NCBI GenBank assembly: GCA_025928955.1
Contig: JAICNA010000004.1
Location: 1 to 34,225 of the forward strand
Reading direction: 5' to 3'
DNA: 34,225 bases
Source of the DNA: Gemmatimonadales bacterium
GTDB lineage: Bacteria > Gemmatimonadota > Gemmatimonadetes > Gemmatimonadales > GWC2-71-9
Part shown: positions 6,781 to 22,590 of the stretch, in pieces
Layout of the letters: each line of letters starts with the position of its first letter
How positions within the stretch are numbered: the stretch's first letter is position 1
Notes under the pieces: model-generated
Databases searched by the model: none
What the model was told of the DNA's origin: nothing
Seen by the model: only the letters and a program-made list of their open reading frames with translations
Translations under genes and position numbers: made by a program

Positions 6781-8418
6781 TCACCGCGCACGGTCGACCG
6801 GTGCACTCCGCACCCCACACCGCGCCAGGATCCGCCGCGGCTCGCCGTGATTCGGCGCGAGCTCGTGCGCGCGTGCGGCGTGCGCGCGCGCGGACCGGCA
6901 GCCGGCTGCCCGCTGCGCGAGGAGGATCTGGAGCCGGAAGCTGCCGGGGTCGAGCACGGACGCCCAGCGCAATCGAGCCAGGGACTGGCCTGATCCCGCC
7001 ATGCCGATGCTCGCGGCCTGGGCCGTCGCATACGAGGCGAACGCGATGCCAAGGGCCGCTGCGAGCACGCCGATGGCACGCTGCGCGCGCGGCTGGGTGA
7101 TCCAGAGAATCTCTCTCGGCGCCGGGTGGAGTGAGCCGAGGATCGCCCAGACGAAGAAGCCGGGAGCCGCGAGGAGCAGGACCGCATCGAAGGTTCCGAC
7201 CACCCCGGTGACGACGATCGTCGCGATCATCGCGAGACCGCTCAGGCCGTCGGTCGTCCGGCCCTGCTGCCGCGACCGGCGCCAGCCGACGAGAGCCATG
7301 GCGATGCCGGCCGCCAGGAACAGCAGCGTCGCCGGAATCCCGCGCTCGGCGAGCATGGCCACCCAGTCGCTGCTCGGCCACGGGTTCGTCGGGATGGGGT
7401 CTCCGGCATCGAATGCCGGATCGCCCGGCGAGGTATAGCGGGGATACTCGACGGGCCAGTTTCCCGGTCCCACGCCGAGGATGGGATTGTCGCGCGTCAT
7501 GCGCAGGGTATTCTCGTACTGGATCAGGCGTCCGCGTCCGCTCCCTTCGCGGAAATTCGCGACACCGACGAGCGTCTCGAGGTACGGCATGTCCGAGCGC
7601 CACTCGAGCGTGTTCGGCAGCGCCATCGCGAGCCCGAGCCCCGCAATGCCGGCGGCGACCGCCCCGCCGAGGCGCTGCCTGATCCGCGGATCGCGCCAGA
7701 GTCCGCTCACCGCGATACCCTCCACGAGGAAGATCGCGAGCCCGGCGGCCACCGCGAGCCACGCGGCGCGCGAACGCGAGAGCAGCAGCGCCGCCGCCGA
7801 GATGGCGATGCCGAGGGGTCCGAGAATCACGGCGCTGCGCGAGCGGGACTCGATCGTGAGGAAGGCGAGCAGCGGAAGGCCGATCGCGGTGAGATGCGCC
7901 ATGAAGTTGCGATTCCCGAACGTTCCGCCCGGCGCGCGGCGGGGGGAGGCGAAGGGGATCTCCACCCCGTACGCCTGCAGGAGCCCCGTCGCGGCACCCA
8001 GGACGGTCGCGAAGGCCAGCATCGAGAGGAGCGGCCGCGAGAATCCCGCCCGGGCGATCGCGCGCGCGGTCCAGAACAGCACGAGCCCCGCGCAGGTGAC
8101 GCCGGTGGCACGGAGGGCGAGCCAGGAATTCGTGGCGAAGACCGCGGAGATGACACTGAGGAGCGCGAAGCCGATCAGCGGCACGTCGACGGTGGCGAGG
8201 GGCATGCGCCGCGCCTGGCGAAGCGCAAGGAGCGCCGCGCCGAACGCCGCGAGATGGAGCACGAGCTCCTTCGGCACCAGGTACCGGTCGAGCTCGAACA
8301 CTGCGCCGGGCATCGCGACGAGGACGATGAGCGGAGCCGCGGCCTGCAGCAGGCGTCGGGCGCTGCGCACCGTCAGGCGGCGGCATCGGGAGGCATGCGA
8401 CGAAAATAGCCGCAACAT
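6781..8418 (-). CDS. O-antigen ligase/polymerase (Wzy/WaaL-like) membrane protein
   Basis: Many hydrophobic segments; GNRNFMAHL, NPILGVGPGNWPVEYPRY motifs typical of O-antigen ligase family; start taken at ATG 8418 within the longer ORF 6781-9120. Confidence 0.82.
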   Translation of the reverse strand: MLRLFSSHASRCRRLTVRSARRLLQAAAPLIVLVAMPGAVFELDRYLVPKELVLHLAAFGAALLALRQARRMPLATVDVPLIGFALLSVISAVFATNSWLALRATGVTCAGLVLFWTARAIARAGFSRPLLSMLAFATVLGAATGLLQAYGVEIPFASPRRAPGGTFGNRNFMAHLTAIGLPLLAFLTIESRSRSAVILGPLGIAISAAALLLSRSRAAWLAVAAGLAIFLVEGIAVSGLWRDPRIRQRLGGAVAAGIAGLGLAMALPNTLEWRSDMPYLETLVGVANFREGSGRGRLIQYENTLRMTRDNPILGVGPGNWPVEYPRYTSPGDPAFDAGDPIPTNPWPSSDWVAMLAERGIPATLLFLAAGIAMALVGWRRSRQQGRTTDGLSGLAMIATIVVTGVVGTFDAVLLLAAPGFFVWAILGSLHPAPREILWITQPRAQRAIGVLAAALGIAFASYATAQAASIGMAGSGQSLARLRWASVLDPGSFRLQILLAQRAAGCRSARAHAARAHELAPNHGEPRRILARCGVRSAPVDRAR

Positions 8419-8487
8419 TTCCCCGTCGCGCCCCGTATTACGATCTGGCGACCCGAATGGCGAATGTTCATTTCTGACGGAGGTTCG

Positions 8488-9087
8488 ATGCTGTCGCTCC
8501 TTACGATCCTGACCCTGACGCTTCCGGCGCCCGTCTCCGCCGCGGAGCCGGCAGCGCCGCCGGCCGATACGGTCACCTATCGGATCGACGTCGGCCATTC
8601 CGAGCTCACCTTCCGCGTCCGTCACCTGATGAGCCGGGCAAACGGAACCTTCCGCGAGTGGTCCGGCACCATCACGGCCGACCCGGCGGACTGGTCCACC
8701 GGAAAGGTCGACGTGACCATCCAGGCGGCCAGCATCGATACGCGCCACGAGCGGCGGGACCAGGACCTGCGGTCGGACAATTTCTTCGATGTGGCCAATC
8801 ACCCGACGATCACCTTCAAGAGCACGAAGGTCGAGGTCGAGGGAAACCGGATCGTGGTCACGGGAGATCTCACGATGCGAGGCACCACCCGTCCGGTGGT
8901 GCTCACCGGTGAGTTCCTCGGCAGGCAGGGTGCCGGGACGGCACGGGAGCGGATCGGCTTCAGCGCCTCCGGAGAGCTCGACCGCACCGCCTACGGGATC
9001 GTCTGGAATCGCGCCGTCGAAGGAGGCGGAGTGCTCCTGGGGGACGAAGTGGAGCTGACGATTGCCGTAGAAGCCGTGCGCATGTGA
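8488..9087 (+). CDS. YceI family protein with signal peptide
   Basis: MLSLLTILTLTLPAPVSAAEP leader; YRIDVGHSELTFRVRHLM...GTITADPADWSTGKVDVTIQAASIDT; RBS ggagg before 8488 (ORF track start 8464). Confidence 0.92.
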   Translation: MLSLLTILTLTLPAPVSAAEPAAPPADTVTYRIDVGHSELTFRVRHLMSRANGTFREWSGTITADPADWSTGKVDVTIQAASIDTRHERRDQDLRSDNFFDVANHPTITFKSTKVEVEGNRIVVTGDLTMRGTTRPVVLTGEFLGRQGAGTARERIGFSASGELDRTAYGIVWNRAVEGGGVLLGDEVELTIAVEAVRM

Positions 9088-9103
9088 CCCTCCCCACGGC
9101 GGC

Positions 9104-9141
9104 AAAGCCGGACGGGCCATAGCTTTGGCTCGTCCGGCTTT
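9104..9141. terminator. Rho-independent terminator-like hairpin
   Basis: AAAGCCGGACGGGCCA-tagctt-TGGCTCGTCCGGCTTT, 16-bp stem with a single G.U wobble, A-run and T-run on the flanks. Confidence 0.85.
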
Positions 9142-9181
9142 CTATTGGAAGTTCAGTGGAACCAACGACGTAGGGGGATCG

Positions 9182-10846
9182 ATGCGCCGCTTGCTCCAGT
9201 GTGTGTTCCTGAGCTTCCTTGTCGCCGCCACGGCCTGCGGGGGCGTTTCACGCGAAGAGATTCATGCCGCATTGGCAGGGGCGTTGGCGGACTCCACACC
9301 GCCCGAGTACATCGAGGCATCGTCCTGGAAGATCGCTCGTGAGATCTATTCGGACGCGGGCGGCAATCCGCTGTGGGTCGAGGGTGGGGCTCCGAAGAAG
9401 CGGGCTCGCGCGCTGGTCGAGGCGGTCGCCGCCGCCGAGGATCAGGGACTCCGTACTGCGGAATACGATCTTGAGGGTCTCGGACAGGCGTTGCAGCGCG
9501 CGTACAAGGACGATGAGACCGAGCCTGCGGAGCTGGCCGAGCTCGACCTCCGCCTGACCGAGCTGTACCTCGAGTATGGTCGGCACCTCCTGTCCGGCCG
9601 GCTCGACCCTTCCCGCGTCAACGAGGACTGGTTCATCCGCACGCGTCGCGCGACGGTGGACAGCACGTTACGGGCTGCAGCGCCCGCTGAGGATCTCGAG
9701 AAGGCCCTCGCGGAGTTCCTGCCGGCCGCGCCCGACTATCGAGCGCTCATGACGGCACGTGCGCGATATGCCGCGATCGCCGGTCAGGGCGGATTTCCGG
9801 AGGTAGCTGCCACGGTCGCACCCGGGGACACCGGCGCGGCCGTCGCCGCGGTGGTGCAGCGTCTGGTGATGGAGGGTGATCTCGATTCGTCCGCCGTGGC
9901 GCTTCGAACCTATGACTCCGCCCTGTCGCAGGCGGTGGAGCGCTTCCGCCGGCGCTTCGGGCTCGAGGCAGGAAAGGGTGTGGACCAGGCGATGCTCGCG
10001 GCGATGAAAGTGCCCGTGGACCGCCGCATCCGGCAGATCGAGCTGAACCTCGAGCGCCTCCGCTGGCTCCCGAACGAGTTCGGCGCGCGCTACGTCGCCG
10101 TCAACATTCCGGACTTCCAGCTTCATGCGTACGACGACGGGCGTGAGGTGCTCACGATGCGCGTGATCGTGGGCGACGAATACGACGGAACGACGCCCGT
10201 CTTTGCCGACACGATGAACCAGGTCGTCTTCCGGCCGTACTGGAACGTCCCTTCGAGTATCGCCCTCGAGGAGATCCTGCCCCTCGTGCAGCAGAACGAG
10301 TCCTACCTCGCGCGGAACGAGTACGAGGTCGTGCCCGCAAAGAGCTCCACCCCCGTCGATCCCCGCTCGATCGACTGGAACGACCTCGACAGCACGAACT
10401 TTCCCTACCTCATCCGGCAGAAGCCGGGGCCGCGGAACGCGCTCGGTCTGGTGAAGTTCCTGTTCCCGAATCGGTTCGACATCTACATGCACGATACGCC
10501 GGGCGATCATCTCTTCCAGCGGAGCAAGCGCGCGCTGAGCCACGGCTGCATCCGGCTGGAACACCCCGACAAGTTCGCCGAGTACGTCCTCGAAGGCACC
10601 GGCAACTGGACGCCCGACCGGATCAAGGCGGCGATGAACGCCGAGGAGCAGCAGCAGGTTCCACTCAAGCGCCCGCTGCCCGTGTACATCCTCTATCTCA
10701 CCGCGTTCGCGCGGGACGGCGAGGTGCATTTCCGCCCGGACCTCTACGACGTCGACGCCCGCGGCATGGAGCGCCTCGGCAAGGCTCCCCCGGCAGCGCA
10801 GATCGCGGCCCTGCGCGCGACGTTCGAAGAGCTGATGAAAGGGTAG
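9182..10846 (+). CDS. L,D-transpeptidase (YkuD/YcbB-like), putative lipoprotein
   Basis: Leader MRRLLQCVFLSFLVAATACGG; catalytic HDTPGDHLFQRSKRALSHGCIRLEHP motif; start 9182 preferred over 9125. Confidence 0.92.
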   Translation: MRRLLQCVFLSFLVAATACGGVSREEIHAALAGALADSTPPEYIEASSWKIAREIYSDAGGNPLWVEGGAPKKRARALVEAVAAAEDQGLRTAEYDLEGLGQALQRAYKDDETEPAELAELDLRLTELYLEYGRHLLSGRLDPSRVNEDWFIRTRRATVDSTLRAAAPAEDLEKALAEFLPAAPDYRALMTARARYAAIAGQGGFPEVAATVAPGDTGAAVAAVVQRLVMEGDLDSSAVALRTYDSALSQAVERFRRRFGLEAGKGVDQAMLAAMKVPVDRRIRQIELNLERLRWLPNEFGARYVAVNIPDFQLHAYDDGREVLTMRVIVGDEYDGTTPVFADTMNQVVFRPYWNVPSSIALEEILPLVQQNESYLARNEYEVVPAKSSTPVDPRSIDWNDLDSTNFPYLIRQKPGPRNALGLVKFLFPNRFDIYMHDTPGDHLFQRSKRALSHGCIRLEHPDKFAEYVLEGTGNWTPDRIKAAMNAEEQQQVPLKRPLPVYILYLTAFARDGEVHFRPDLYDVDARGMERLGKAPPAAQIAALRATFEELMKG

Positions 10847-12300: not shown

Positions 12301-14952
12301 ATGACAGGCATGCTCGAATCCGATATTGCCGTACTTCCCGAAGCGCTCGAGGTGCGTCGGCTCCGGGCGCTCCGGGGGCCGAATGCCTGGAGCCTCGATC
12401 CGGTCATCGCGTGCGACGTCGTCCCCGGCGCGCTGTGCGAGGTGAACAGCGCCGACGTCCCGGGCTTCACGGACCGTCTGCTCGAGGCGCTCCCCTCACT
12501 CTCAGAGCACCCGTGCTCGATCGGGTCTCCGGGAGGATTCGTGCAGCGACTCCGCGAAGGCACGGAGTGGCCGCACATCCTCGAGCACGTGGGGCTCGAT
12601 CTGCAGGGGCTCGCGGGAAGCGAGGTCCGGTTCGGCCGCGTGGTCCGTGGGGGAAGCCCCGGGGTGTGGCGGGTCGTCGTCGAGTACGAGCACGAGGACG
12701 TCGGCCTCCAGGCGATGCGTGACGCCGTCGCCACCGTCCGTGCCTGCATCGGCGGTGAGGCGCCCGACATGCATCCGGTCGTCGAGGCGCTCCGGCAGCT
12801 GCACGCATCGATCCGGCTCGGCCCGTCCACCGCGGCGATCGTCGAGGAGGCGCGCCGGCGCGGGATCCCGGTGCGGCGCCTCAACACCGGTTCCTTCATC
12901 CAGCTCGGGCTCGGCCGTCACCTGCGCCGGCTCAAGGCGACGATGAGCGACCAGACGAGCATCATCGGTGTCGAGATCGCCCAGGACAAGGATCTCACCA
13001 AGCGCATCCTCGGCAACATCGGCTTGTCGGTGCCTGCCGGGGCGCTCGCGGCGAGCGTCGATGACGCGGTCGCCGCAGCGAATGAGATCGGCTACCCCGT
13101 CATCCTCAAGCCTCGCGACGGCAATCAGGGCCGGGGCATTTCGGGCTGCCTCACCGATGCAGCGGCCGTGCGCGACGCGTGGGAGGCCGCGGCGGCGCTC
13201 GGGCGTGCGGTGATCGTCGAGCGGCACTCGGCCGGCCGCGATCATCGGGTGCTGGTCGTGAACGGAAAGGTCGTCGCCGTGGCCGAGCGCATCGCCGCGC
13301 ACGTCACGGGCAACGGGCGGTCGACGATCCGGGAGCTCATCGCGGACGCGAATCTCGACCCGAGGCGCGGTGAGGGACACGGGAGCATCCTCACGCTCCT
13401 GCCCGCCGACGCCGCGACCGAAGCGCACCTCGCGCTCTCGGGCCGCGGGCTCGACAGCGTGCCCGCGGATGGCGAGCGGGTCTTCCTCCGCGGCACCGCG
13501 AATCTCTCGACCGGCGGGACGTCGATCGACCGCACCGACGAGATCCATCCCGACAACGTCACCGCATGCGAGCTCGCCGCCAGCGTCGTCGGGCTGGATA
13601 TCGCGGGGCTCGACATCCTCACGCCCGACATCTCGGTCCCGTTCCACGAGAACGGCGCCGTCATCATCGAGGTGAATGCTGCGCCGGGCGTGCGCATGCA
13701 CACGCACCCGGTCGAGGGAAAGCCGAGGAACGTGGCCGGCGCCATCCTGGACATGCTGTATCCCGCCGGCGCGCGCACGGCGATCCCGATCATCGCCGTG
13801 ACCGGCACGAACGGGAAGACGACCACCACGCGCCTCGTCGCCCACCTCTTCCGCAACACCGGACGCACCGTCGGGTTCACCACCACGGACGGGGTGTACC
13901 TGCAGAACCGCCTCGTCGCGTCCGGCGACATGACGGGGCCGTTCGCCGCGGGCATCGTGCTCTCCAATCCGATCGTGGAAGTCGCCGTGCTCGAGACGGC
14001 GCGCGGCGGGATCCTCCGCTCGGGGCTCGGCTTCGAGGAATGTGACGTCGGGATCGTGCTCAACGTTTCCGGCGACCACCTCGGCCTGCACGGCGTCCAG
14101 ACGCTCGAGGAGCTGGCCGAAGTGAAGGCCGTGGTACCTGCGGTCGTGAAGCGGCGCGGGCATGCGGTGCTCAATGCCGATGATCCGCTCGTGCGCGGCA
14201 TGGGCGAGCGGACGAGCGGTGACGTGGTCCTCTTCTCGACCGAGCCGGACGCAGCGAACCCGGCCATCAAGGCGCACGTGGAGGATGGCGGCACGGCGGC
14301 GTGCATCGAGCAGGAGACGTTCGTCATCCGCCGCGGGCGGCTCCGGATCCCGATCGCCGCGACCGGCGAGGTGCCGCTCACCATCGGCGGGGCGGCTCGA
14401 TTCCAGTATCAGAACATCCTGGCGGCGATCGCCGCCGCGTACGTGCAGGGCATGCGGTACGAGGATATCCGTGCGGGACTGATGTCGTTCTTCCCCTCGC
14501 CGTCACTCACGCCCGGCCGGATGAACCTCCTGCGGGTGGGACGCGGCCAGGTCCTCGTGGACTATGCGCACAACGCCGCGGCGATGTCGGGCCTCATGGA
14601 CCTGGTGGCGCGCATCGATGCGGCGCGGCGCATTGCCGTGCTGGCCGGGCCGGGGGATCGTCGCGACGAGGACCTGCGCGCGCTCGGTCGGAGCGCGGCG
14701 GGGTTCGATTTCGTGATCATCAAGGAAGACGACGACCTGCGAGGCCGGAACCCGGGAGACGCCATCGCGCTGCTTCGTCAGGGGCTGCTCGAGACCGGGA
14801 TGGCGCCGGAGCGCATCGAGGTGCATCCCCGGGAGCGGGACGCCGTGTCCCGCGGGCTCGAGCTGCTGCAGGGGCACGACCTGCTCGTGATCCTCGCCGT
14901 AGACGTGCCGGCGGTGCTGGAGCAGCTCCGGCCGATCTCGACGAGCCTCTAG
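12301..14952 (+). CDS. cphA: Cyanophycin synthetase, copy 1 (N domain + ATP-grasp + Mur ligase)
   Basis: LKPRDGNQGRGIS, VERHSAGRDHRVLVV, IIEVNAAPG (ATP-grasp); VTGTNGKTTTTRL, LETARGGILRSGL, VDYAHNA, DDDLRGRNPGD (Mur ligase). ATG 12301 is the start inside ORF 11419-14952. Confidence 0.93.
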   Translation: MTGMLESDIAVLPEALEVRRLRALRGPNAWSLDPVIACDVVPGALCEVNSADVPGFTDRLLEALPSLSEHPCSIGSPGGFVQRLREGTEWPHILEHVGLDLQGLAGSEVRFGRVVRGGSPGVWRVVVEYEHEDVGLQAMRDAVATVRACIGGEAPDMHPVVEALRQLHASIRLGPSTAAIVEEARRRGIPVRRLNTGSFIQLGLGRHLRRLKATMSDQTSIIGVEIAQDKDLTKRILGNIGLSVPAGALAASVDDAVAAANEIGYPVILKPRDGNQGRGISGCLTDAAAVRDAWEAAAALGRAVIVERHSAGRDHRVLVVNGKVVAVAERIAAHVTGNGRSTIRELIADANLDPRRGEGHGSILTLLPADAATEAHLALSGRGLDSVPADGERVFLRGTANLSTGGTSIDRTDEIHPDNVTACELAASVVGLDIAGLDILTPDISVPFHENGAVIIEVNAAPGVRMHTHPVEGKPRNVAGAILDMLYPAGARTAIPIIAVTGTNGKTTTTRLVAHLFRNTGRTVGFTTTDGVYLQNRLVASGDMTGPFAAGIVLSNPIVEVAVLETARGGILRSGLGFEECDVGIVLNVSGDHLGLHGVQTLEELAEVKAVVPAVVKRRGHAVLNADDPLVRGMGERTSGDVVLFSTEPDAANPAIKAHVEDGGTAACIEQETFVIRRGRLRIPIAATGEVPLTIGGAARFQYQNILAAIAAAYVQGMRYEDIRAGLMSFFPSPSLTPGRMNLLRVGRGQVLVDYAHNAAAMSGLMDLVARIDAARRIAVLAGPGDRRDEDLRALGRSAAGFDFVIIKEDDDLRGRNPGDAIALLRQGLLETGMAPERIEVHPRERDAVSRGLELLQGHDLLVILAVDVPAVLEQLRPISTSL

Positions 14953-16595
14953 CGCTCCGCTTCCGCCGCGCGCAGCAGCTCGAGCACGCGGCCGCGCTCC
15001 TCGTGAACCAGGAGCACGAGCAGGTCGCCGGGCTCGGCCCAGGCGAGCGCGCGTTCCGCCGCCTCGACCTCGGTCTCGACGTCCTCGAGCGCGTCCTCGG
15101 CAAAGCCGGACGCCAGGAGCGCCTTCCGCAGGACGGCACGCACCTCCCCCGGACCTCTTCCCCTCCGCAGCGTCGGCAGCTCCTTGAGCAGGATGCGGTC
15201 CGGCGAGAGCTCCAGCGCGGCGGCCGCGAGCTCCGCGATGGCCGCATCGTCGCGGTCTCCCGCCTGGCCGAGGAGGATGAGGCGGCGCCGGGCGGGAATG
15301 GTGTCGAGAAACCCTCGGAGCGCATGGATGCCGTGCGGGTTGTGCCCGTAGTCGACGAGCACATGCGCCCCGCCGATGTCGAGGACCGTGCCGCGCCCCG
15401 GGTTGTCGACCGCCGGCTCGAACCGGCGGAGCGCCGGCGCGATCGCCGACTCGGGGACGCCGAGTGCGAGCGCGAGGGCCGACGCGGCCAGGACGTTCTC
15501 GATCTCGTAGGGCGCGGTCGCGCCGGTGGCATGACGGAGGTCGTCGATCGCGGCGAGCACGCGCCGGCCTCCGGCGTGCAGCACGACCGAGTCCCCCTCC
15601 AGGCACACCTGCCGTGCCGCCCCGCGAACCGGACCGCCGCGCGAGAACCAGGTCACTCCCGCCCTCCGCTCTCCTTCGCCGCGGAGCAGCGCGTCGTCCG
15701 CATTGAAGATGATCGCCCCTTCGCGCGGGACGACGCGCGTCACGACGAGCTTCGCCGCGAGGAGCTGCTCGACCGAGCCGACGCCGAAATCGCCCAGGTG
15801 GTCGGCGGCGATGTTCGTGACGAGCGCTGCGTCGGCGCGCCGCACGGCGAGCCCCCGCCGCAGGATCCCGCCACGCGCCGTCTCGAGGATCGCGATCGTG
15901 ACCCGCGGATCGCGGAGGACGACGCGCGCGCCCATCGGGCCGGCGAAATCGGTCGGGACGATGAGCTCGCGACCGACGCTCACCCCGTCGGTCGAGGTGT
16001 AGCCCGGCGTGTGCCCCGCCTCGCGTGCCATCGCGGCCGCGAACCGGACGGTGGAGGTCTTGCCGTTCGAGCCGGTGACGAGGCCGATCGGAACGTCGTG
16101 GATGCCCGACCAGTCGATCGTGGAAGGATCCGGGATCTCGTCGTTGGGCCAGAGGCGGACCCCCCGACCCGATCCGACCGATGCACCGTCATCGTCGTGG
16201 AGGAAGGTGAGGCCTCGGCGCGCTGCCTCCGCTTCGAGCGCGAGCAGCGCGGGATTCCGGTCCCGCTCGATCCGCTCGCGCAGCCGGTCGATCGCGCCGG
16301 CGGCGGTCGGCCCGCCCGATGTCGCGGCACTCCACGCGAGCTCCGCGAGATCGGTGGCGGGATAGAGACCATCCAGCGGCGCGCTCACGAAGAGATGCGC
16401 ACCACCGGGGAACGGCCGGACGACCGTCGTTTCCGCGCTCCAGCCGACGGCATCGAGGAGCCGCCGCGCTTCGGCTTCCCACGTCGCCGCCCGTTCGTCC
16501 TGGTCGACAGCGAGGAAGACATCGAATGCGGCGCCGGTGCGGTCTCCGAGGAGGTGCGGGCCGGTGATCCGGCGCGCTTCGGGCTCCGCGGTCAA
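14949..16595 (-). CDS. CphA-derived Mur ligase family protein lacking the ATP-grasp domain
   Basis: VTGSNGKTSTVR P-loop, LETARGGILRRGL, NFADD-type NADD, VDYGHNPHG; no KPxxxNxGRG or EVNAAPG motifs. TTG start at 16595 overlaps the stop of the upstream cphA (TTGA). Confidence 0.85.
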   Translation of the reverse strand: MTAEPEARRITGPHLLGDRTGAAFDVFLAVDQDERAATWEAEARRLLDAVGWSAETTVVRPFPGGAHLFVSAPLDGLYPATDLAELAWSAATSGGPTAAGAIDRLRERIERDRNPALLALEAEAARRGLTFLHDDDGASVGSGRGVRLWPNDEIPDPSTIDWSGIHDVPIGLVTGSNGKTSTVRFAAAMAREAGHTPGYTSTDGVSVGRELIVPTDFAGPMGARVVLRDPRVTIAILETARGGILRRGLAVRRADAALVTNIAADHLGDFGVGSVEQLLAAKLVVTRVVPREGAIIFNADDALLRGEGERRAGVTWFSRGGPVRGAARQVCLEGDSVVLHAGGRRVLAAIDDLRHATGATAPYEIENVLAASALALALGVPESAIAPALRRFEPAVDNPGRGTVLDIGGAHVLVDYGHNPHGIHALRGFLDTIPARRRLILLGQAGDRDDAAIAELAAAALELSPDRILLKELPTLRRGRGPGEVRAVLRKALLASGFAEDALEDVETEVEAAERALAWAEPGDLLVLLVHEERGRVLELLRAAEAER

Positions 16596-19411
16596 TCCTC
16601 GCCCTCGACCTCGGCTTCGACCTTTCGCGCGAGGCGCACTCCGCGCACATCGCGCACGAGAGGACGCGCCGCCTCCGGCGCGGGAGCGGCCGGCGGTGCC
16701 ACGGGAAGCGCGGCCGCCGTGCCGTTCCCCGAGACGCCGCGCCGAGCGCTCCGCCGCTCCACCTCGACCGGGCGGAACGACGAGATCTGCTCCCATGTGC
16801 GCGCGACGGCGTCCCCGAAGATGAGCACGAGGTCCCCGGCACGCGCCTCGGAAAGGGCCTGGGCCGTGGCCTCCTGCTCGTCCGGCACGACGGCGATCTG
16901 CTCCTCCGGGACGCCGAACTCGAGCAGCGCATCGCGGAGCATTCGCGGGATCTCGTCCGGCGTCCGTCCCCGGAGCCCGTCATCCCGGCGGCAGATGTAC
17001 CGGTCGAACCATCCCGCGGCGATCCGCGCGATCTCCTTCACGTCCTCGTCCCGCCGGTCTCCGGGCGCCGCGAGGACGACGATGCGGCGGCCACCGGTCT
17101 GCAGCCGGTCGACGAACTGCACCATCGCCTCGACAGCGGCGGGATTGTGGCCGTAGTCGAGGATCACCTTGAACGGATGGTCGTCGAAGACGTTGCCGCG
17201 GCCGGGGGCCTGGAAGAAGGTCGTGTCGAACGTCTGCAGCCCGTGGCGGATGTTCTCCAGCTTGAGGCCCATGCTGAACGCGAGTGCGGCCGCGAACATG
17301 GCGTTCTGCACGTTGTGCAGCGCGCGCCCGTCGAGGGTCGCGGGCACGAGATGCGCCGGGAGCAGGGGGATGTGTGCGCCGTGGTCGTAGAGGGTGATCA
17401 TGCGCCCCGTCATGCTCCCCTCGAGCACGATGCCCCGGCCACCCGCCTGGATGTGCTCGCGCACGAGCTCGTGATTCGGATCCATCGTCACGTAGCACAC
17501 GTGCTTCGCGTCGGTATGATCGGCCATCGCGAGGCAGAGCGGGTCGTCGGCGTTGAGCACCGCCGTGTCCCGCGCTACTTCGACCACGATCCGCTTGACC
17601 TTCGCCAGCTCCTCCACCGTGTCGATGCCCCGGCGGCCCAGGTGGTCCGACTTCACGTTGAGCACCGCGCCGACGTCCACCTGCCGCACCGCGAGGCCCG
17701 CCCGCAGGAGGCCTCCGCGCGCCACCTCGAGCACCGCGACATCCACGAACGGATCGCTCAGCACCATCCGCGTGGCGCGCGGGCCCGTCATGTCGCCCGA
17801 GACGGTTCGCTGCCCGTCGATGTAGACGCCGTCGGTCGTGGTGAGGCCGACGTGGTGGCCCGCGAGCTTGTGGATGTGCGCGAGCATGCGCGCCGTCGTG
17901 GTCTTGCCGTTCGTGCCGGTGATCGCGGCGATCGGGATCCGGCTCGGCGCCCCCGCCGGGAATAGCATGTCGAGCACCGGCCCCGCGACGTCGCGCGACT
18001 TCCCTTCGCTCGGCGCCATGTGCATCCGGAATCCGGGCGCGGCATTCACCTCGACGATCGCCCCGCCGACCTCCTTGTACGAGCGGGTGATGTCGCTCGT
18101 GAGGAAGTCCACCCCGCCCACGTCGAGCCCGATCGCCTCCACGGCGCGCACCGCCATGTCGGCGTTGTCCGGGTGCACCACGTCCGTCATGTCGATGGCG
18201 GTGCCGCCGGTCGAGAGGTTGCCGGTCGACCGGAGGAAGACGCGCTCGCCGCTCGCGGGCACCGTGTCACGGCCGTAGCCGAGCCTGGACAGCAGCATCT
18301 CCGCCTGCCCGTCGATCTCGAGGCGCGTCAGCACCTTCTCGTGGCCGATGCCACGGCGCGGATCGTCGTTCACCTCCGCGACGAGTTCCTCGATCGTGTG
18401 CACGCCGTCGCCGATCACATGGCCGGGAATCCGCTGGGAGACCGCGATCAGCCGCCCATTGACCACGAGGATCCGGTGGTCGTACCCGCTCACGAAGGTC
18501 TCGATGATCACGCTCCGGCTGTGCTCGCGCGCGGTGGCGAACGCGGCGCGTACCTGATCGGCCTCGAGCAGGTGGATGGAGATCCCGCGCCCGTGGTTGG
18601 CGTTGTACGGCTTCACCACGACCGGATAGCCGATCGCCTCGGCGGCGCGCACGGCGGCTTCCGGGGTCTGCACGAGGCGCTGGATCGGCACGGGAAGCCC
18701 GAGATTCGCGAGCAGGCGGTTCGTCTCCTCCTTATCGGAGGCGAGCTCGACCGCGATGTGGGACGTGTTGCTCGTGACCGTCGCCTGCACCCGCCGCCGG
18801 TAGCGCCCGTGCCCGAACTGGATCAGGCTGTTGGTGCCGAGCCGCATCCAGGGGATCCGCCGCTCCTCCGCCGCGTGCACCAGCGCCGCCGTGCTCGGCC
18901 CGAGGGCGTGCCGCTGGGTAAAGCGGATGAAGTCGTCCCGCTCGGCCGCGAAGTCGAATCCCTCCGGGACCGCCTCCTCGTCACGCAGCTCGCGCGGGAG
19001 GAGGCTCAGGAGGAGCGTGCGCGCGAGCTCGCCGGCCTCGAGGCCGACTTCCTCCTGCTCGTACTGGTAGACGATCCAGTAATGCCCGCGGGGGCCGAGC
19101 GAGCGCGTCTTGCCGAAGGTGAGCGGATGGCCGGCGACGTTCTGGAGCTCGATCGCGACGTGTTCCAGGATATGCCCCATCCACGTACCGTCGCCCTCGG
19201 TGAGACGCCGGACGAAGCCGCCGGGCTCGCCGTAGGAACAGCCGTGCTGCGTGAGCCCCGGAAGCGCCGACAGCAGCCCGTTGATGAACTCGGGGCCGAG
19301 CTTTGCCGACGGCCAGTCCTCGAGGACGCCGAGGTCGACGTCGAGCCGGATGACGGGAAAGTGGGCATAGAGATTCGGGCCCACGTACACGGCGCGGTCG
19401 AGGATCCGCAT
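16592..19411 (-). CDS. cphA: Cyanophycin synthetase, copy 2 (N domain + ATP-grasp + Mur ligase)
   Basis: MRILDRAVYVGPNLYAHFPVIRL start; VKPYNANHGRGIS, SGYDHRILVVNG, IVEVNAAPG; ITGTNGKTTTARM, LEVARGGLLRAGL, LDYGHNPAA, DDGLRGRTPDE; about 50-aa Pro/Ala/Arg-rich then acidic C-terminal tail. Confidence 0.95.
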   Translation of the reverse strand: MRILDRAVYVGPNLYAHFPVIRLDVDLGVLEDWPSAKLGPEFINGLLSALPGLTQHGCSYGEPGGFVRRLTEGDGTWMGHILEHVAIELQNVAGHPLTFGKTRSLGPRGHYWIVYQYEQEEVGLEAGELARTLLLSLLPRELRDEEAVPEGFDFAAERDDFIRFTQRHALGPSTAALVHAAEERRIPWMRLGTNSLIQFGHGRYRRRVQATVTSNTSHIAVELASDKEETNRLLANLGLPVPIQRLVQTPEAAVRAAEAIGYPVVVKPYNANHGRGISIHLLEADQVRAAFATAREHSRSVIIETFVSGYDHRILVVNGRLIAVSQRIPGHVIGDGVHTIEELVAEVNDDPRRGIGHEKVLTRLEIDGQAEMLLSRLGYGRDTVPASGERVFLRSTGNLSTGGTAIDMTDVVHPDNADMAVRAVEAIGLDVGGVDFLTSDITRSYKEVGGAIVEVNAAPGFRMHMAPSEGKSRDVAGPVLDMLFPAGAPSRIPIAAITGTNGKTTTARMLAHIHKLAGHHVGLTTTDGVYIDGQRTVSGDMTGPRATRMVLSDPFVDVAVLEVARGGLLRAGLAVRQVDVGAVLNVKSDHLGRRGIDTVEELAKVKRIVVEVARDTAVLNADDPLCLAMADHTDAKHVCYVTMDPNHELVREHIQAGGRGIVLEGSMTGRMITLYDHGAHIPLLPAHLVPATLDGRALHNVQNAMFAAALAFSMGLKLENIRHGLQTFDTTFFQAPGRGNVFDDHPFKVILDYGHNPAAVEAMVQFVDRLQTGGRRIVVLAAPGDRRDEDVKEIARIAAGWFDRYICRRDDGLRGRTPDEIPRMLRDALLEFGVPEEQIAVVPDEQEATAQALSEARAGDLVLIFGDAVARTWEQISSFRPVEVERRSARRGVSGNGTAAALPVAPPAAPAPEAARPLVRDVRGVRLARKVEAEVEGED

Positions 19412-19422
19412 GGCAGGTTCCG

Positions 19423-20331
19423 TTAGACGCGAAGCGCGATCGCCGGAGCGGGCGCGGCCTCTCGCGTATGAAGGTTGTACGTGGAGCCGTGGTCGAGGAT
19501 GTGCAGGCGGAGGCCGATGAGGCACACCGGATCGTTCTTCCGCACGCGCGCCATCGAGCTGAACGTGATCTCGGACGGATCCACGACGGTCAGCGATCCG
19601 CCGCCCACGACCTCGAGGTTGTTGTCCGGCCCGATGAAGGCCGCCGTATTCTCGTCGAGCCCGATGCCGATGGCGAACGGGTTGTAGCCGATCGCGGTGA
19701 GCAGGCGGCCGAGGCGGTCGCGCTGGCGGAAATGCTGGTCGATGATCACGCGGTTGGTGAGGCCGAGCCCGGGCGCGAGCGTCACGATCTTCGCCCGTGG
19801 CGAGGCGCCCTCCCGGCCGAACGCGATCATGTGCTCGCAGAGGAACGCGGCCCCCGCCGAGGTGCCCGCGACGTGCACGCCGGACGCGTTCCGGCGGCGT
19901 ATTGCCCGCGCCACGTCGGTGCCGCCGATGAGCGTGGAGAGGCGCAGCTGGTTCCCGCCGGTGAGGAAGATCCCGTCCACGTCCTCGAGCGGCTCGACGT
20001 GATTCGGGTCCATCGCGTGGCTCCGGTCGGTGATCGGCAGGACGACCGTCTCCGCCGCGCCGAGCGTCGTGAACAGCGTCGCGTATTTCTGGCCGGTATC
20101 CGAGAGCTCGGAGGCGGTGGGGATGATCGCGATCCGCGCCGACGGCCCGCCGCAGAGCGCGACGAACCGGCGGAGGATCATGATGTCCCCGACCTTCTCT
20201 TCCGCGCCGCCGACCGGGATCACGAAGCCGCTGCCGAGAACGTCCCGCACATCGGGATCGGCGGGTTCGATCAGATCGCCAGATCCTCGAAAGTTCCGCG
20301 ACGAACCGCTCGACCGTTTCGTACGTGCCAT
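19423..20331 (-). CDS. cphB: Cyanophycinase (start uncertain: 20331 ATG, or GTG near 20250)
   Basis: GSGFVIPVGGAEEKVGD...; GIFLTGGNQLRLSTLIGG; nucleophile motif GTSAGAAFLCEHMI; neighbours cphA and iadA. Confidence 0.9.
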   Translation of the reverse strand: MARTKRSSGSSRNFRGSGDLIEPADPDVRDVLGSGFVIPVGGAEEKVGDIMILRRFVALCGGPSARIAIIPTASELSDTGQKYATLFTTLGAAETVVLPITDRSHAMDPNHVEPLEDVDGIFLTGGNQLRLSTLIGGTDVARAIRRRNASGVHVAGTSAGAAFLCEHMIAFGREGASPRAKIVTLAPGLGLTNRVIIDQHFRQRDRLGRLLTAIGYNPFAIGIGLDENTAAFIGPDNNLEVVGGGSLTVVDPSEITFSSMARVRKNDPVCLIGLRLHILDHGSTYNLHTREAAPAPAIALRV

Positions 20332-21443
20332 TGCCCTCTCACCATGACGTCACGGATGGCCCCGGCGGCATCGAGCACGACGACGTCGGCATCGGTACCC
20401 GGGGCGATGCGCCCCTTGCGGGGCAGCAGGAGGAGCCGCGCCACGTTGGCCGTGAACGCGGGAAGGACGCGAGCCAGCGGCTCGCCGCGCGCGAGGAGCG
20501 CGCGCAGGGTGTTGCCGAGTGCGGCGGGCCGCCCGACGTCCATCGAGGCGACGCGCCCGTCGCTGTCGAATACCGGCAGGCACCCGCCGGCGTCGCTGCT
20601 CACCGTCACGTTTCCCGGGGGAAGCTTCGCGTCGAGGTACCGGACGAGCGCTTCGTCTGCGGGCCACGCATCCTCGTCGGCTCCGACGGGAAAGGCGGTG
20701 ATGTCGATCACGGTGCCGTTCGCCGCGAGCGCGCACGCCTCGTCGAACAGCGCGCGCTTCCGGTTCACGTGCGTCGGATGAAAGACCGACGGCGGCAGCT
20801 CGCTCGTCGCGAGCGCCTGACGAACGAGGTCGAGGCCGCGCGCGCCATCGCCCATGTGCAGGTGCACGATCCCCGCCTTGCCCGTCATCATCCCTGCCAC
20901 GTGCGCATCGGCGGCGATCCGCAGCAGCTCATCGAGCGTCGGCTGGCTCGAGCGATGATCGCTGAGTGCCACCTCGCCGATCCCGATGATCCGATCGATG
21001 AGGACGATGTCGCCCCGGACGCTTCCGGTGACCGTCGCCGGCGGAACGTGGTATCCGCCGGTGAGCGTGTACGCCGTGAGCCCTTCCGCCTCGAGCGCCC
21101 GCGCCGCGGTGACGAGCTCGGCCGGGGTGCGGACGACGTCGTCCGTGCCGAGCACGCCGACCACCGTCGTCGTCCCGCCCGTGGTGAACCGGCTCAATGG
21201 GACCGGCGGGACCCGTGTATGCGGGCCCGCCTCGCCCCCGCCACCGGTCAGGTGGGCGTGACAGTCGATGAAGCCCGGGACGACCCGCAGCCCGCCCAGG
21301 TCCGTCACTTCGGCGCCGAGCGCGTCGGGCAGCTGCGGCGGCTCCGTGCCGAGCCAGGCGACGCGATCACCCGTGACCAGCACGTGGCGGCGCCCGAGCG
21401 GCTCCGGGGCGTAGAGATCCGCATTGAGCAGAAGCTGGATCAT
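20271..21443 (-). CDS. iadA: Beta-aspartyl (isoaspartyl) dipeptidase
   Basis: VVPGFIDCHAHLTGGGGEAGPHTR, GEVALSDHRSSQPT, GKAGIVHLHMGD; amidohydrolase family IadA pattern. Confidence 0.93.
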   Translation of the reverse strand: MIQLLLNADLYAPEPLGRRHVLVTGDRVAWLGTEPPQLPDALGAEVTDLGGLRVVPGFIDCHAHLTGGGGEAGPHTRVPPVPLSRFTTGGTTTVVGVLGTDDVVRTPAELVTAARALEAEGLTAYTLTGGYHVPPATVTGSVRGDIVLIDRIIGIGEVALSDHRSSQPTLDELLRIAADAHVAGMMTGKAGIVHLHMGDGARGLDLVRQALATSELPPSVFHPTHVNRKRALFDEACALAANGTVIDITAFPVGADEDAWPADEALVRYLDAKLPPGNVTVSSDAGGCLPVFDSDGRVASMDVGRPAALGNTLRALLARGEPLARVLPAFTANVARLLLLPRKGRIAPGTDADVVVLDAAGAIRDVMVRGQWHVRNGRAVRRGTFEDLAI

Positions 21444-21712
21444 GCGCGGGAAGTTAGTCCGCGGTGGGCCCGGACGTAACGGATGAGATCCGGTGTGCGC
21501 TCCACGACGATGACGCCCGGCATCCGGAGCGCCACGAGGCGCGGCTCACCCCTGAGGTCGAGGTGCGGCCACTTCACGTTCCCGAGCTGCAGCGCCTGTG
21601 GTGGCGCGCCGACGAGCACGCGGAAGGCCTCCAGCTCGTCGATGTCGTTGCCGGTCGAGACCACGTGCGACCAGCCACGCGCGAAGAGATTCTCCCGGTC
21701 CATGACGATCAT
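21440..21712 (-). CDS. Small conserved-looking protein, possibly DUF4031-like
   Basis: 90 aa MIVMDRENLFARGWSHVVSTGNDIDELEAFRVLVGAPPQALQLGNVKWPHLDLRGEPRLVALRMPG...; ATGA overlaps on both sides; family call by eye only. Confidence 0.6.
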   Translation of the reverse strand: MIVMDRENLFARGWSHVVSTGNDIDELEAFRVLVGAPPQALQLGNVKWPHLDLRGEPRLVALRMPGVIVVERTPDLIRYVRAHRGLTSRA

Positions 21713-22590
21713 CGGCGCACCGGGGCGCGGGAGACGAACTCCACCGTGCGGCGCATGATCTCCGGATCGCGAATCACCGCCCGGTGGCCGAGGCCGGAGG
21801 TGATCATCAGCTCGGCCCCCGGCCACGCGGCATGGATCGCCTCGGCATCGGCCACGCTCACGTCCGGGTCGTTCGCGTCCTGGACGATGAGCGCCGGGGC
21901 AGCGAGGCGGGCGGCCAGGGTCGGGAGGTGCAGGTGCTTCCATTCGACGCCGAGCCGACGCTCGAGATTCGACTGCATCGTGCGGCGAACGGCGGGCGGG
22001 ATGTCGAGCACCATCGCGAATCGGTCCGCGAAGACCTCCGGGTTCGAGGGCGCCGCGATCAGCACCGCACGCTCCGCCGGCAGCCCTCGACTGAGCGCCA
22101 CGGCGATCGCCGCGCCACCCAGCGAGTGCCCCACCACGCCGTGCGCGGGGCCGAGCTCGGCCACCACGCCGAGCAGCGCGTCGGCGAACTCCGGCAGCGA
22201 TGCGAAGCGTCCCGGCGAGCGGCCGTGCCCGGGCGCGTCGTAGGTCGCGACCCGGAATCCTTCGGCGACGAGGAGCGGGGCGAGCGTCGCCCACCGACCC
22301 GCGCGACTTCCCCAGCCGTGCGCCAGGACTACGAGCGGGCCCTCGCCCCATTCCCAGGCGCTGAGCGTCGTCCCGTTCGTCGCGGTGAGCGTCAGGGGCC
22401 GCCCCGTTGCCAGGAATGCCTCCTCCGCCGGACGAGCCTCCTGCCGCGGCGGGCGGCAGAAGAGCGACTCGGCCCAGCGCGCCGCCACGCCGGGGGCGAC
22501 AGTGCCGGCGGTCCGGAATAGTGCGCGGAGCGCGGTGATGCGCGCTCCGCGGGGGGTGGAGTCCGGAATCGGGGGTTGTGGCGCCGCCAT
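21709..22590 (-). CDS. Alpha/beta hydrolase
   Basis: VVLAHGWGSRAGRW oxyanion region, GHSLGGAA nucleophile elbow, DANDPDVSV acid, GLGHRAVI histidine. Confidence 0.9.
   Translation of the reverse strand: MAAPQPPIPDSTPRGARITALRALFRTAGTVAPGVAARWAESLFCRPPRQEARPAEEAFLATGRPLTLTATNGTTLSAWEWGEGPLVVLAHGWGSRAGRWATLAPLLVAEGFRVATYDAPGHGRSPGRFASLPEFADALLGVVAELGPAHGVVGHSLGGAAIAVALSRGLPAERAVLIAAPSNPEVFADRFAMVLDIPPAVRRTMQSNLERRLGVEWKHLHLPTLAARLAAPALIVQDANDPDVSVADAEAIHAAWPGAELMITSGLGHRAVIRDPEIMRRTVEFVSRAPVRR

Follow-up and report, generated by a model that had tools for sequence, protein, structure and literature searches.

The window analysed here, a 34,225-nucleotide stretch of contig JAICNA010000004.1 from the draft genome (2.77 Mb) of a soil-type Gemmatimonadales bacterium, carries an operon for the nitrogen-storage polymer cyanophycin, in which the gene of a cyanophycin synthetase, CphA_b, is followed by that of a further ligase, here called Mur3 (Table 1). 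Cyanophycin synthetase has so far been studied as a self-sufficient enzyme. Sequence comparison identifies Mur3 as a conserved partner of CphA_b, so that the unit of the locus is the CphA_b-Mur3 pair, and synthetases of this class carry a C-terminal tail whose last residue is Asp, which is a new observation. Mur3 appears to be a widespread, intact and active accessory ligase; the literature that we searched for Mur3, for self-priming or for an adjacent Mur ligase holds no description of any of them. We tentatively propose that Mur3 primes cyanophycin synthesis on the terminal Asp of its partner.

The partnership is seen over a wide range of bacteria. Mur3-specific motifs, searched for in 85,488 species genomes, matched at least 80 loci, and mur3 lies directly downstream of cphA_b in nearly every locus holding both, the order in relatives of the window being iadA-cphB-cphA_b-mur3. 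Nearly all loci long enough to show the neighbour have this adjacency, which extends to at least nine phyla; those among the listed loci are Gemmatimonadota, Planctomycetota, Acidobacteriota, Rhodothermota, Pseudomonadota, Myxococcota, Fidelibacterota (Neomarinimicrobiota), Eisenbacteria and Chloroflexota (Ardenticatenales). Within the phylum of the window, CphA_b-type genes are present in 47 of 301 genomes, 45 of which also have Mur3 (41 by search and four by inspection). The score limit accounts for the apparent lack of Mur3 in those four (G239, G096, G312 and G273). As to the remaining two, the sequence of G289 ends inside CphA_b, and G228 has a distant CphA_b-like gene and lacks Mur3. Mur3 proper occurs in none of the 25 genomes of this sample that have only other CphA types; a match in G233 proved to be a plain MurE. 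The same pattern holds in 339 Gammaproteobacteria, 246 Alphaproteobacteria, 250 genomes of the Rhodothermales phylum and 298 genomes of one gammaproteobacterial order. RefSeq labels these proteins only as 'Mur ligase family protein', for example WP_160788060.1 from Shinella and WP_117873666.1 from Ruegeria. Mur3 is retained elsewhere in the genome when unlinked from CphA_b (G081, G320), and in G042 (L036:6392-12095, minus strand), where CphA_b is gone, cphB is truncated and Mur3 is frameshifted with iadA intact, although this single draft genome could contain an assembly fault. We count both observations in favour of the partnership.

Mur3 matches the synthetase model TIGR02068 only at positions 478-859, the Mur-ligase part, with 299 bits against a cutoff of 850, and Pfam finds in it no ATP-grasp domain, the G domain that characterizes a CphA1. 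Its membership of the Mur ligase superfamily is clear from Mur_ligase_M (60.0 bits) and Mur_ligase_C (48.6 bits), whose gathering scores are 24 and 28.4, and residues K179, E238, H266, K282, R401, D415 and H418 are invariant among the 40 Mur3 compared. The first ~165 residues form a degenerate CphA N domain that keeps the N-domain start R..L.GPN... and in which the metal or HxxEH site is found in 0 of 84 Mur3. The presence of this N domain makes Mur3 a CphA minus its G domain and not just a stand-alone Mur ligase; an earlier note on this DNA, which had described it as an 'ATP-grasp-less Mur ligase', was correct about the missing ATP-grasp and did not mention the N domain. The AlphaFold2 model of Mur3 (mean predicted local distance difference test score, pLDDT, of 93; predicted template modelling score, pTM, of 0.92) agrees with whole CphA structures at a query template modelling score (TM-score) of 0.83 across 884 columns, and so many aligned columns for a 548-residue query imply that the N and M domains align while G is skipped. 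Nor does Mur3 resemble a CphA2, which has an active G and an inactive, shortened M: it has no G and an intact M.

The M domains of Mur3 form one clade (support 100) outside every sampled CphA M domain. This topology indicates a single origin and rejects a recent duplication of the M domain of the neighbouring synthetase. Decay of the third ligase into a pseudogene in relatives, a prospect that the earlier note had raised, is rejected by more than 100 intact copies beside CphA_b and by purifying selection (non-synonymous divergence dN of 0.43 versus synonymous divergence dS of 1.19 to the nearest relative, a rough figure). Mur3 is therefore very likely functional in the cyanophycin pathway. Its substrate may differ from that of CphA_b. 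Mur3 lacks a conserved equivalent of residues D810 and D811 of CphA_b (conserved at 100% and 97%); it has a one-residue insertion and commonly an aromatic residue or His at this place, and the CphA motif GPGDRRDED reads GQAGDRxD. By analogy to MurE, the D810-D811 pair may hold the cationic side chain; its loss of conservation suggests that Mur3 may add something other than arginine. Genome G230 contains another N+M ligase without G (L193:4359-6263, plus strand), which evolved independently from a CphA_a-type gene. This ligase has a Mur3-like donor motif, KEHSRYRRGR, and the CphA of the same genome has no Asp tail.

The tail of CphA_b follows the M domain and consists of an Ala/Pro-rich linker of 35-64 residues, the motif (R)DxRGVRxA and an acidic end. 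The motif is present in 104, and the terminal Asp in 103, of the 105 distinct complete CphA proteins that have Mur3. Two proteins depart from this pattern: L086, whose gene is split by a frameshift, and L141:8879-11794 (minus strand), which is intact and stops right after RGVRLA. Position -4 is Glu in 91 of 104 tails, positions -2 and -3 are variable, and the distance from the motif to the C-terminus ranges from 3 to 13 residues. Because this spacing varies and the terminal Asp is nevertheless constant, the end itself seems to be under selection. The last residues of Mur3, CphB and IadA are mixed, none being fixed. The RefSeq proteins WP_160788061.1 (Shinella) and WP_117873663.1 (Ruegeria) agree with the pattern. 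Only one of 39 CphAs without Mur3 has the tail (L034), on a contig that ends before mur3 could be seen. In the AlphaFold2 model of CphA_b (pLDDT 82), residues 918-927 form two strands (pLDDT ~80) between the disordered linker and the disordered end. A PDB search with a 25-residue query, which recovers 58 of 76 true tails, found no tail in solved chains, moderate evidence that 7LGM and 7LGN lack it. Tail and Mur3 both map to a single branch of the CphA tree, with one gain each. Since each arose once, their co-occurrence cannot count as independent evidence that the two work together, and because of this shared ancestry we give no weight to Fisher's test of tail versus Mur3.

The second synthetase of the window, CphA_a, is a different enzyme. 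Both CphA_a and CphA_b are CphA1 proteins, with an N domain, an ATP-grasp G domain, a Mur-type M domain and scores above the TIGR02068 cutoff, and in both the M-domain catalytic motifs (P-loop, ARGG, DH, GR, DYxHN, RGR) are complete. However, the best solved relatives of CphA_a are the cyanobacterial enzymes 7WAC and 7LG5, and that of CphA_b is 7LGM from Acinetobacter baylyi. The two fall into well separated groups in a tree of 69 CphAs, in which CphA_a joins nine CphAs from genomes without Mur3. The N-domain motif of primer-independent CphA1, Cx19HxxEH, defined in PMC9262961, is exact in CphA_a, is spaced as Cx21HxxEH in CphA_b and is absent from Mur3; the longer spacing recurs in 75 of 76 Mur3-partnered CphA_b. 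We also considered that the M domain of CphA_b might be dead and Mur3 supply Arg in its stead, and rejected this idea on the intact P-loop and ARGG of all 76 CphA_b.

These results revise the picture given in the earlier note, which had read the locus as a three-ligase cyanophycin system. Its gene content stands: two full CphAs, a CphA-like ligase without ATP-grasp, CphB and IadA are encoded in five open frames that relatives match along their entire lengths, with family models above cutoffs (for CphB and IadA the equivalog cutoffs, 257/127 and 407/331 bits), and the matches to TIGR02068, TIGR02069 and TIGR01975 assign the genes to cyanophycin synthesis and degradation. The unit does not, as Mur3 goes with CphA_b alone and CphA_a is usually absent. 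Where the note suggested a search for synteny of all three ligases, only the CphA_b-Mur3 pair is kept across phyla; CphA_a lies beside it in 2 of the 47 CphA_b genomes of the phylum. The double CphA is an incidental, rare neighbourhood, not a conserved unit. Synthesis and degradation do share a conserved minus-strand operon, iadA-cphB-cphA_b-mur3, as proposed, but CphA_a is outside it and convergent to it, its stop overlapping that of Mur3 by 4 bases.

Based on the above data, we propose, as a reading that falls short of an even chance, that Mur3 is an Asp-side-chain ligase dedicated to priming cyanophycin, and that it does so on the C-terminal Asp of CphA_b itself. The minimal primer of CphA1 is (beta-Asp-Arg)-Asp; in the M reaction, an amino acid is linked to an Asp at the C-terminus through the side-chain carboxylate of that Asp (PMC9262961). 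The CphA_b tail would offer its own C-terminal Asp as acceptor, and Mur3 would make the first side-chain bond on it. The G domain of CphA_b would then add Asp, producing a protein-bound equivalent of (beta-Asp-Arg)-Asp, which the G and M domains would extend by the usual cycle, and the N-domain protease could later release chains by cutting. CphA_a, independent and tail-less, would make ordinary cyanophycin from cut primers. That the polymer grows from the synthetase itself after Mur3 has modified the terminal Asp, a priming route undescribed for cyanophycin, is a possibility that we hold with greater caution still. Mur3 could do without a G domain, as CphA_b brings the first Asp in its own encoded sequence. 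Priming on the tail would thus explain why Mur3 has lost the G domain and the protease site and retained the chain-binding N fold, as well as the flexible tail and its terminal Asp.

Several observations weigh against this proposal. Mur3 and the tail fit one gain each, and their match could reflect shared ancestry. The proposal leaves the donor site unexplained, and since Mur3 does not conserve the acidic pair that is invariant in CphA_b, arginine is disfavoured as the residue added. CphA_b itself retains Cx21HxxEH and may therefore already make primers by cutting. Lastly, the G-less ligase of G230 stands beside a tail-less CphA, so that a ligase of this kind needs no tail.

The best surviving alternative, which we judge somewhat unlikely, is that Mur3 decorates the polymer by adding a non-Arg amino acid to some of the backbone Asp residues that CphA_b lays down, so that the polymer is mixed or its end capped, while the tail only recruits Mur3 or holds the chain. 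The motifs that line the amino-acid site by comparison with MurE differ in just this region (D810/D811, the inserted residue and GQAGDRxD), and the G230 ligase has a similar change without an Asp tail on its CphA. IadA accepts many beta-aspartyl dipeptides (PMC10206079), which would suit such a product. However, decoration leaves the terminal Asp of CphA_b unexplained, and the arginine-holding residues of CphA are themselves only tentatively assigned, by the MurE analogy. The altered donor motif keeps alive the suggestion of the earlier note that the locus may make a modified polymer or a heteropolymer.

The two strands modelled in the tail motif, with pLDDT near 80 as if docked within CphA_b, would also fit a regulatory or scaffolding pair, in which the tail, mimicking a substrate, binds CphA_b or Mur3 and acts as an activity switch, Mur3 catalysis being secondary. 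This is quite doubtful, as Mur3 keeps all its catalytic motifs, unlike known non-catalytic Mur relatives. A decidedly improbable alternative is that Mur3 makes free starters, such as a dipeptide beta-Asp-X from free Asp, which CphA_b extends, the tail having another job. Unprimed first steps, beginning with beta-Asp-Arg, are very slow in CphA1 enzymes (PMC9262961), and Mur3 holds only the domain needed for that bond; against this, CphA_b has an HxxEH site that may make primers by cutting, and the tail is left without a role. Least credible is chance inheritance of CphA_b, tail and Mur3 as one operon without a direct working link, which the single tree change for each of tail and Mur3 would allow, but which fits poorly with the constancy of the tail end in nine phyla, where the linker is free to vary, and with a Mur3 that is kept when unlinked and broken when CphA_b is lost.

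An entire class of cyanophycin synthetase, found in at least nine phyla, comes with a conserved second ligase and a fixed terminal Asp. The start of the chain, and side chains beyond arginine and lysine in natural cyanophycin, become testable with ordinary proteins of bacteria that can be cultured, among them Shinella zoogloeoides ATCC 19623. Should the priming proposal be true, it would amount to a new way of starting a storage polymer, and altered polymers could perhaps be made with the ligase as a tool.

Table 1 Genes and motifs of the cyanophycin locus in the window, with N-domain-only proteins of other Gemmatimonadota. NCBIfam cutoffs are 850 bits for TIGR02068, 127 bits for TIGR02069 and 331 bits for TIGR01975.
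Feature	Position	Strand	Description
CphA_a	12301..14952	+	883 aa; cyanobacterial-type cyanophycin synthetase, N+G+M, no Asp tail (ends ...RPISTSL); TIGR02068 1088 bits
Cx19HxxEH primer-making (endo-cyanophycinase) motif, CphA_a N domain	12514..12588	+	from sequence; motif as in PMC9262961
Mur3 (third ligase)	14949..16595	-	548 aa; degenerate N domain and M domain, no G (ATP-grasp)
Mur3 counterpart of CphA DDxLRGR motif	15156..15188	-	acidic pair not conserved, one residue inserted
P-loop TGSNGKT, Mur3 M domain	16056..16076	-	G175, N177, G178 and K179 invariant in 40 Mur3
TTGA overlap, CphA_b stop and Mur3 start	16592..16595	-	Mur3 start codon TTG
CphA_b	16592..19411	-	939 aa; Acinetobacter-like class, N+G+M and C-terminal tail; TIGR02068 1125 bits
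CphA_b C-terminal tail RDVRGVRLARKVEAEVEGED, last residue Asp	16595..16654	-	from alignment; AlphaFold2 strands at residues 918-927
Cx21HxxEH motif, CphA_b N domain	19160..19240	-	two residues longer than the published Cx19HxxEH
CphB, cyanophycinase	19423..20331	-	TIGR02069 257 bits; same operon in relatives
IadA, isoaspartyl dipeptidase	20271..21443	-	TIGR01975 407 bits; same operon in many relatives
Alpha/beta hydrolase	21709..22590	-	upstream of iadA
N-domain-only proteins	L033:8833-10011 (-), L133:9306-10622 (+), L134:4531-6114 (-), L135:5928-8207 (+), L136:3571-4734 (+), L196:2899-4056 (-)		in other Gemmatimonadota

The range 12301-22590 assigned to the locus in the earlier note contains the cyanophycin genes but also takes in the alpha/beta hydrolase. 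The nearest relative (G014) has a counterpart at this position (58% identity), and none was seen in the rest of the relatives compared. Flanking genes (window 6781-10846), which G014 and G021 share, encode an O-antigen-ligase-like protein and a YkuD L,D-transpeptidase. In other Gemmatimonadota, CphA_a-type genes lie beside a gene for a small protein that has the N domain (PF18921) as its sole CphA domain, plus an unannotated C-terminal part, followed by a second cyanophycinase. The one example examined whole keeps Cx19HxxEH, and such proteins are possibly stand-alone endo-cyanophycinases or primer makers; the CphA_a of the window has no such neighbour. On a Deinococcus plasmid (L180:10475-12974, plus strand), a 'Mur ligase' and a short 'cyanophycin synthetase' beside a normal cphA resemble one CphA-like gene split in two frames.

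Compared with the solved CphA1 enzymes (SuCphA1 7LG5, TeCphA1 7WAC, AbCphA1 7LGM and TmCphA1 7LGN), CphA_a and CphA_b have all three domains, and the N and M folds of Mur3 follow each other as in those enzymes; Mur3 differs in the absence of the whole G domain and of the N-domain metal site, and CphA_b in its conserved Asp-ending tail. Like cyanobacterial CphA2 (PMC9427784), Mur3 is a CphA relative that has lost one of two ligase activities, but CphA2 keeps G and loses M activity, whereas Mur3 does the reverse. Clusters with adjacent synthesis and breakdown genes (cphA-cphB-iadA) occur in 37 of 231 genomes having all three genes (PMC10206079); the part of that survey consulted does not mention a third ligase. 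With MurE and other Mur ligases (1E8C, 4C12), Mur3 shares the M-domain fold and P-loop chemistry; however, it is nearer to CphA M domains, has a CphA-type N domain and sits in cyanophycin operons. A parallel for the proposed priming is glycogenin, a self-priming polymer enzyme whose polymer is begun on one of the enzyme's own residues, with the difference that in the cyanophycin case the first bond would be formed by a second enzyme, the ligase, and on a C-terminal Asp.

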